Below, piece after piece: positions 42,681 through 45,578 of a stretch of DNA of 64,000 nucleotides (positions are counted from its first letter, which is position 1; each line of letters starts with the position of its first letter). Both the position numbers and the translations under genes were made by a program. The notes beneath the pieces were generated by a model. That model had not been told where the DNA came from. It searched no databases and saw only the letters and a program-made list of their open reading frames with translations. The stretch is from Veillonella sp. R32 (GTDB taxonomy: Bacteria > Bacillota > Negativicutes > Veillonellales > Veillonellaceae). The stretch is taken from contig NZ_NMZQ01000001.1 in NCBI RefSeq assembly GCF_010093125.1, positions 62,001 to 126,000 of the forward strand. Direction: 5' to 3'.

Positions 42681-43856
42681 ATGTTGGTAGGTTTGAATAT
42701 TATATTAATCATCGCTATCATGGGTGGGGCGATTGCGTTCATTGGCGATAAATTAGGATCTAGAATAGGCAAAAAAAGAATGTCTATTTTTGGCTTACGG
42801 CCAAAACATACCTCCATTATTATGACGATTATTACGGGGATTTTTATTTCCGCCAGTACGTTGGGGATTTTGGCCTTTGCTTCTGAAAATGTACGAATTG
42901 CTTTATTTGGGATGGAGCAATTGCAAGCTGAAATGGATCAATTAAATAGTGATGTAGCTGCTAAAAATAAAGAATTAGAGGCTGGTAAAAAAGAGTTAAG
43001 TGAAAAGACAGTGGCTTTAAATACTATGCGTAAAGATGTGCAAGCCACTCAAGAAGAATTAGAAGAGGCACGAGCTGCTCGTAACTCTATGAGCGAAGAA
43101 TTAATTTCGGTGCAAGAAGCGTATCGACAAGCGGATGCGCGGTTAGCACAGTCTACTAATGATGTAAAGGCTTTAGAAAGTACTAAACAGGAATTAGAGG
43201 CTCACATTGAAGATTTGAAAGTAACCACTAAGCGGTTAGAAGAAGGGATTACGCATGTTCGTGAAGGCACTGTTTTATTCCGTGTTGGTGAAGTGCTCAG
43301 TGGCGCGTTAATTCGTCCAGGCCTTAATGAAGAAGAAAGTGCGAAAGCAATTACCAATGTATTGAATGATACGAATGGCTTAATTTTACGCCGTTTAGGC
43401 ATTGATGAAAATAAGGCTGTTATTTATGTAAGCCGTTCTAATTTAGAAGACGTAGCTAAACAAGTGGCTAATGCGTCGGAACCAATGACCATTCGCATAA
43501 CGGCAGCGGCTAATATTATTTATGGTGAAGCGGCGTTGGCAGAAATTCATGCGTATCCTTATCGCAAAGTATATGATAAGGGGGATGTCATTTGGACGAC
43601 CACAGTACAAGGTGGTGGAGATGCACAATTTACAGTATTATCGTTCTTAAAAGATGTAAATGGGCAGGCTAAGACACAGGGTATTTTACCCGATCCACTG
43701 AGTGGTGATGTAGGTTCAATGCCAGGTGATGAATTGTTTGATACCATTCGTGAGCTCAGTCGTATGTCCGGGTCGGTTCGTTTAGAAGCAGTCGTACGGG
43801 AAGATACTTATACGACTGGACCGGTACAAATAGAGTTGCGATTGAGTCCGGAGTAG
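42681..43856 (+). CDS. DUF3084 membrane/coiled-coil protein
   Basis: A 391-residue protein with two N-terminal membrane helices (GLNIILIIAIMGGAIAFI and IIMTIITGIFISASTLGIL), about 120 residues of coiled coil (~80-195), and a C-terminal domain with RVGEVLSGALIRPGLNEEES. This order is that of DUF3084 proteins, which are of unknown role and common in Negativicutes and cyanobacteria. ATG 42681 is 18 nt beyond AAAGGAG; no closer in-frame start is obvious. It lies after the LPS terminator, so it has its own transcription, for which no clean promoter was found. Confidence 0.8.
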   Translation: MLVGLNIILIIAIMGGAIAFIGDKLGSRIGKKRMSIFGLRPKHTSIIMTIITGIFISASTLGILAFASENVRIALFGMEQLQAEMDQLNSDVAAKNKELEAGKKELSEKTVALNTMRKDVQATQEELEEARAARNSMSEELISVQEAYRQADARLAQSTNDVKALESTKQELEAHIEDLKVTTKRLEEGITHVREGTVLFRVGEVLSGALIRPGLNEEESAKAITNVLNDTNGLILRRLGIDENKAVIYVSRSNLEDVAKQVANASEPMTIRITAAANIIYGEAALAEIHAYPYRKVYDKGDVIWTTTVQGGGDAQFTVLSFLKDVNGQAKTQGILPDPLSGDVGSMPGDELFDTIRELSRMSGSVRLEAVVREDTYTTGPVQIELRLSPE

Positions 43857-43922
43857 TTATGGTAATTATGCATAAAATGCATAATTTAGATTAAAATTAG
43901 TAACTAAGCGTTATTGACTTTA

Positions 43923-43931
43923 TGGTATAAT
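43923..43931 (+). promoter_or_regulatory. extended -10 promoter of the candidate small RNA
   Basis: TGGTATAAT (43923-43931) is a consensus extended -10. The predicted transcription start near 43938 falls immediately before a paired region. No good -35 hexamer is present at 17 bp; a TTGACT at 43914-43919 is too close. Confidence 0.45.
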
Positions 43932-43937
43932 AAGTAT

Positions 43938-44088
43938 ATCGAAAATATTCGCTTATATGGTTGAATACATCCGTTTAAAGTATTTAAGGATGTATATTGG
44001 GTTAATACATAGGCGTTTATTTTCAGAGATTACTATGCCGGAACAGATACAAATGCTGCCGATAGCTTAGCTACCGACAGCATTTTTT
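43938..44088 (+). ncRNA. candidate structured small RNA, about 150 nt
   Basis: Non-coding stretch between the DUF3084 gene and the RNase H-like gene. From the predicted start, GAAAAT (43941-43946) pairs with ATTTTC (44019-44024), CGCTTAT (43950-43956) with ATAGGCG (44009-44015), and ATACATCC (43965-43972) with GGATGTAT (43988-43995), making one long interrupted rod. A separate terminator hairpin follows at 44052-44088. No open reading frame of useful size lies inside. It could be a free small RNA or a leader of the next gene, whose ribosome site is 18 nt past the terminator. I could not assign it to a known family. Confidence 0.42.
44052..44088 (+). terminator. intrinsic terminator of the candidate small RNA
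   Basis: AATGCTG (44052-44058) pairs with CAGCATT (44078-44084); the stem continues as CGATAGC/GCTACCG with mismatches and a TTA loop, then a run of six T (44083-44088). Confidence 0.75.
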
Positions 44089-44122
44089 GTGGACATTTCT
44101 GATTAAAAGGAGGCGTATTACG

Positions 44123-44623: not shown

Positions 44624-45496
44624 ATGGCTGCTTATAAAAAAGCACAAAAACTTACTTGGAAAGATATTTTAATACGTTATATATGGATTGTAATTGGTGC
44701 CGCCATATATACTTTTGGACTCGATGTATTATTGGTACCTAAAAGCATCATCGACGGTGGTGTAGTTGGTTTAGCCTTGATGGCAGCGGAATTAACCGGC
44801 ATTTCCTTCAGTATTTATTTGGTACTGATTAATCTGCCATTCCTCTATGTGGGCTATAAATTGATAGGACGTAGTTTTACGGTAGCTACTTTATTTGGCG
44901 TTGTATGTATTTCTATTATGTCTTTGTACATGCATACGATTACGCCACCTGATATTGATCCTTTCTTAGCCTCTATCTTTGGTGGGGTCATCCTTGGTAT
45001 CGGGGTAGGGCTCATTATTCGTAATGGGGGCTCTTTGGATGGTGTAGAAATTGTAGCTATTATTATGGATAAGAAAAGCTCCTTCTCGGTAGGTGAAATC
45101 GTTATGATTTGTAACTTATTTATCTTAGGAGCGGCTGGTTTTGTTTATAGCTGGAATAGTGCTATGTATTCCTTAATTGCTTACTTTGTTGCCTATAAAA
45201 TGATGGATATGACTATTACCGGTCTAGAAGAGTCTAAGGGCATTATGATTATTACTGATAGCCCTGATGAAATTCGTGAAGTCCTTATGCATCGCCTTGG
45301 CCGTGGTGTAACTGTTTTATTCGGTGAAGGTGGCTATTCAAAAGAACCAAAAAAAGTGTTATACTCAGTAGTGACGCGTCTTGAGATTACAAAAATGAAA
45401 GACATCGTGTATGAACAAGATGAAAACGCGTTTATTACTATTACTGACGTACATGATGTATTTGGTGGTCAATTCGGTAAGAAGACGATTCACTAA
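44624..45496 (+). CDS. YitT-family membrane protein (DUF161/DUF2179)
   Basis: Five or six membrane segments (for example WIVIGAAIYTFGLDVLLVP, LMAAELTGISFSIYLVLINL) and a C-terminal DUF2179 cytoplasmic domain (GIMIITDSPDEIREVLMHRL then GRGVTVLFGEGGYS). Members are widespread in Firmicutes; function not firmly known, possible transporter. 290 residues. Start ATG 44624 behind GGAGAAAGGGG; in-frame ATG 44594 lies before it. Confidence 0.88.
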   Translation: MAAYKKAQKLTWKDILIRYIWIVIGAAIYTFGLDVLLVPKSIIDGGVVGLALMAAELTGISFSIYLVLINLPFLYVGYKLIGRSFTVATLFGVVCISIMSLYMHTITPPDIDPFLASIFGGVILGIGVGLIIRNGGSLDGVEIVAIIMDKKSSFSVGEIVMICNLFILGAAGFVYSWNSAMYSLIAYFVAYKMMDMTITGLEESKGIMIITDSPDEIREVLMHRLGRGVTVLFGEGGYSKEPKKVLYSVVTRLEITKMKDIVYEQDENAFITITDVHDVFGGQFGKKTIH

Positions 45497-45578
45497 GTGG
45501 CTGTATGCGGTTCTTGGAGAAAGGAGTCTAGCGTAGCGTTTGCTTGTTAAGGAGTAGGTCAAACGGCTAGAAATTTAT

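Follow-up and report, generated by a model that had tools for sequence, protein, structure and literature searches.

The window, i.e., the whole 64,000-nucleotide stretch of the Veillonella sp. R32 genome that was analysed, holds a gap of 266 bp (43857–44122, read directly) between a gene for a DUF3084 protein and a short gene for a RuvC/RNase H-like protein, the latter being followed in the same operon by a gene for a yitT-family membrane protein. Within this gap lie two operator-like inverted repeats, an extended −10 element, a putative 5' hairpin, a long interrupted rod, a linker and an intrinsic terminator (Table 1). The original prediction took the −10 element, the rod and the terminator for the layout of an RNA gene of about 150 nt, and all the coordinates that it gave for them are correct base for base.

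Table 1. Genes and sequence features at the locus (positions within the window).
Feature	Coordinates	Strand	Remark
DUF3084 gene, upstream neighbour	42681–43856	+	Pfam PF11283, E 5.7e-30
Inverted repeat TTATGC-N7-GCATAA, operator-like, 5' of promoter	43866–43884		kept with changes in 6/6 species
Palindrome TTAGTAACTAA over the −35 position	43897–43907		conserved in six species bar one base in G004
Extended −10 element TGGTATAAT	43923–43931	+	TATGGTATAATAA invariant in six species
Putative 5' hairpin CGAA-AATA-UUCG near predicted transcription start	43940–43951	+	RNAalifold consensus, six species
Rod, three nested pairings	43941–44024	+	variable among relatives
Conserved linker GATTACTATGCCGGAACAGATA	44028–44049	+	mostly unpaired in the model for the window species
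Intrinsic terminator, hairpin and T6	44052–44088	+	stem, loop and T-run invariant in six species
Short RuvC/RNase H-like gene, downstream neighbour, 154 aa	44123–44587	+	motifs by eye
yitT-family membrane protein gene (YitT_membrane and DUF2179), next in operon	44624–45496	+	

The RuvC-like protein returns no sequence match in Pfam, NCBIfam or PDB, and the name of its fold thus rests on the motifs AVDPG and DDFTAW as read by eye; it possibly belongs to an undescribed RNase H-fold family. Its gene was found in all 28 of the family genomes searched, including those without the RNA element. A guide RNA, as a variable body beside a RuvC-like gene might bring to mind, was rejected because the protein has only 154 residues and is encoded in every family genome, RNA or not. 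Further along, the gap that separates yitT from the signal peptidase gene (45497–45578) has kept a stretch near GGTTCTTTGAAGAAAGGAGTC at 6/6 loci while the rest of that gap is variable, and this stretch is possibly a small conserved element.

At the upstream end of the element, the extended −10 reads TG-G-TATAAT, with the hexamer part at 43926–43931; it is present as originally described and is conserved in the six species that carry the element. No −35 hexamer can be recognised at a spacing of 16–18 nt (1–2 of 6 matches), the −35 region instead holding the conserved palindrome TTAGTAACTAA, which is a possible activator or repressor site. The retention of both operator-like inverted repeats in the six species suggests that the promoter of the putative short RNA is regulated. 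No regulon is visible for the 12-mer TTAGTAACTAAG of the palindrome, as it occurs at most twice per genome.

At the other end, the terminator hairpin AATGCTG-C-CG-A-TAGC-TTA-GCTA-C-CG-A-CAGCATT (44052–44084; −14.3 kcal/mol) with its T6 (44083–44088) can be read directly, and the claim of a terminator here is borne out further by its invariance in the six species. A simple scanner made no terminator call on the plus strand on account of the two C/A mismatches and reported the hairpin on the minus strand only. On that strand, the two C/A mismatches become G-U wobbles, so that the opposite strand would give the better-paired hairpin, though it would serve no gene there.

The element is found in six of seven Veillonella species representatives, including V. 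ratti, V. intestinalis and V. seminalis, and is always single-copy, with the DUF3084 gene on one side and the RuvC-like gene on the other. A covariance model run over 61 genomes of the order gave no match beyond the same six species. A search of genome contigs for the hairpin pattern recovered four records, all from Veillonella, whereas viral contigs, plasmids and phages gave no match to it, and there is thus no sign of a mobile origin. One genome of the same genus (G005) is devoid of the element, its gap holding a plain terminator with a promoter behind it; hence, the element is dispensable. V. parvula-like genomes, presumably those of the V. parvula group, similarly have mostly a terminator and then a promoter, and in another genus there is nearly no gap at the locus.

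Conservation, expressed as the share of invariant columns over the six species carrying the element, is strikingly uneven along the gap. It stands at 76% in the promoter stretch (43896–43933), 60% at the 5' end, 71% in the linker (44027–44050) and 97% in the terminator, where the loop, both arms and the two mismatched pairs are all invariant; the stretch from the terminator to the next gene has 18%. The neutral yardstick, provided by fourfold-degenerate sites, is 5% in the DUF3084 gene and 15% in yitT, whereas the 6S RNA of these genomes, with a mean column identity of 95%, is comparable to the terminator. The values for promoter, linker and terminator lie far above those of the fourfold sites, pointing to strong nucleotide-level selection on the element, from which the rod is exempt: most of the rod has 14% invariant columns, i.e., the neutral level, and refolds in differing registers. 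The functional parts would hence be the promoter, perhaps the small 5' hairpin, and a 3' module in which the linker and the terminator hairpin together span about 60 nt. The invariance of loop, arms and mismatches would exceed the needs of a plain terminator, in which loop changes and compensatory changes would be free.

The rod was nevertheless the most conspicuous feature in the single genome. All three pairings of the predicted structure are present: GAAAAT (43941–43946) with ATTTTC (44019–44024), CGCTTAT (43950–43956) with ATAGGCG (44009–44015; one G-U) and ATACATCC (43965–43972) with GGATGTAT (43988–43995). The fold of 43937–44092 beats dinucleotide shuffles (z = −3.1; 1 in 200 as good), and the rod alone reaches z = −4.0 in the window species. 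It is not, however, what the relatives have conserved. Among the species, the z of the rod fold spans −4.0 to −0.6, with significance in the window species and a weak signal in the V. ratti group, and the distance from the −10 to the linker varies from 64 to 111 nt with the length of the rod. The three stems are kept only partly in the six species, with 68%, 50% and 78% of cells paired; the paired cells do exceed slid controls, but this is weak evidence, given only six related sequences, an uncertain alignment of the inserts and reference structures taken from two of those sequences. RNAalifold on the six species finds no rod, its consensus containing just the terminator and the small 4-bp 5' hairpin CGAA-N4-UUCG, the stem of which is kept, with one end base lost in G001, while its loop varies. 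By these comparisons the rod is the least conserved and least informative part of the candidate RNA gene, and a striking fold in a single genome can be the part of an RNA gene that is least selected.

The strong and locally confined conservation supports what was first proposed, a short RNA gene (about 150 nt) equipped with a promoter and a terminator of its own, since it is limited to the parts that an RNA gene needs and is far above neutral. We favor, with a probability of roughly 0.5, the reading that one Veillonella branch has here a single-copy RNA gene that also serves as the 5' leader of the RuvC-like/yitT operon. RNA polymerase would start near 43937–43940 at the conserved extended −10 promoter and mostly stop at 44088, with a fraction of polymerases continuing into the genes for the RuvC-like and yitT proteins, by which the RNA would also become their 5' leader. 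The working part would be the 3' module, whose sequence a partner, either a protein or (via the linker) a target RNA, would recognise, while the intervening rod would be a neutral spacer free to change in sequence. The RNA would act beyond its role as a leader, and a degree of invariance in loop, arms and mismatches similar to that seen in 6S counts for such a separate RNA.

The searches for partners were negative. Complements of the linker as antisense targets are no commoner than the control. The six ATCTGTTCC sites conserved across species all lie opposite coding sequence, so that the mRNAs carry the sense sequence and not a binding site. Antisense targets were thus not found, a weak negative that covers one 9-mer seed and part of the sites. 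Hfq (PF17209) was matched in none of the seven genomes of the genus (G000–G006), with the control genomes positive, making a classical Hfq-dependent sRNA unlikely. A more specific version of the stand-alone RNA, in which the invariant terminator hairpin with its two conserved C/A mismatches is the recognition element of a new lineage-specific regulatory RNA working free of Hfq through an RNA-binding partner, is doubtful. As speculation, A+.C wobbles at the mismatches could make termination pH-sensitive in a genus that uses lactate and is exposed to acid.

A purely cis-acting leader, which is the foremost rival, would equally account for the constant synteny and the missing downstream promoter. 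The promoter would then serve the RuvC-like/yitT operon, and the 3' module would be a switch at which a protein or ligand sets the read-through. The original prediction had allowed that the element might be a leader that attenuates the gene behind it, and this is partly supported: the six species have no convincing promoter in the stretch from the terminator to the RuvC-like gene, whereas G005 and the V. parvula-like relatives, which lack the element, have a TG-extended −10 at the same place. Expression of the RuvC-like and yitT genes thus probably depends on read-through, to judge from the sequences, with a weak −10-like TATAGT before the RuvC-like gene in G002 and G006 speaking against it. 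The linker segment CUAU-gc-CGG-aa-CAG can pair with CUG-CCG-AUAG of the 5' arm of the terminator to form an antiterminator, which is the minimum-energy fold of the isolated linker and 5' arm, whole in five species and partial in G004, and in which both bases left mismatched by the terminator find partners. However, this antiterminator is no stabler than those formed with a shuffled linker (fraction as good 0.40–0.62, or 0.19–0.56 with dinucleotide shuffles) and in a longer truncated transcript it forms in only three of the six species. Moreover, there is no conserved ligand-binding fold, be it aptamer or sensor, 5' of the terminator, where the rod is neutral and absent from the RNAalifold consensus. 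Both readings share the same anatomy, and the pure attenuator is a credible possibility that we rank below the stand-alone RNA with a leader role.

It is improbable that the gap contains just ordinary elements without any RNA function, i.e., a terminator that ends the DUF3084 transcript and a start site unrelated to it. Related genera indeed hold only a terminator and a promoter in the gap, and G005 does without the element, but in the six species the promoter precedes the terminator rather than following it, the 97% invariance extends to the loop and the mismatches, and the linker is equally selected though part of neither promoter nor terminator. Still less likely, indeed very unlikely, is a leader peptide (I-T-M-P-E-Q-I...) across the linker that couples translation to termination. 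An ATG, GTG or TTG is seen at the same place and in frame in five of six species, with a purine-rich sequence upstream of it in G002, but in G003 a CCG has become ATG, in G004 the frame stops after eight codons and the terminator is fixed at the nucleotide level whatever the frame. In addition, a 1-nt length difference directly before the hairpin, found in the window species, changes every reading frame, arguing against protein-level constraint and a coding linker. Finally, the proposed resemblance of the rod to 6S RNA (RF00013) is limited to its hairpin outline in the window species, and identity with 6S can practically be dismissed, as a separate true 6S lies on another contig of the same genome (G000:C18:89444–89616; 90.3 bits, cut-off 46.4), a clear one is present in 39/39 relatives searched and the six-species consensus has no conserved rod. 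The Rfam search suggested as a check, of the window at gathering thresholds and of the locus at E up to 10, returned only chance-level matches and no family at the locus, 6S included; a search for tRNA and tmRNA likewise found none there.

In light of the above, the element is real and under selection, and is probably an undescribed lineage-specific RNA whose kind, on present evidence, is ordinary; the literature search retrieved no report of it and no Rfam family covers it. A single-copy 3' module with 6S-grade conservation in genomes that have no detectable Hfq offers a clean entry to RNA regulation in Veillonella and its class.

Parallels may be struck with several known systems. Among terminator-borne switches are the RAT/LicT-type antiterminators. 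The HRC-8-4 motif is likewise a terminator-borne switch (PMC8632094). What these share with the Veillonella element is a terminator hairpin with conserved nucleotides beyond the need of a plain terminator; they differ in that the latter has no Rfam family match and its antiterminator pairing is not above chance. The ilvD and potE motifs, which are Veillonella-specific candidate riboswitches (PMC8632094), are similarly lineage-restricted structured RNAs of this genus, but they precede ilvD and potE, whereas the present element precedes the RuvC-like/yitT operon. The layout is like that of UpsM of Rhodobacter sphaeroides, a family-restricted sRNA that arises via Rho-independent termination in the 5' leader of a conserved operon, the dcw cluster (PMC5089854). 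UpsM is an expressed RNA that depends on Hfq and undergoes cleavage by RNase E, while the Veillonella element is known from sequence and its genus has no Hfq match; the likeness lies in a short RNA made by termination within an operon leader, a matter of layout for which no sequence relation is claimed. The best reading of the element would be a lineage-specific short RNA that, like UpsM, doubles as the terminated leader of the operon behind it.
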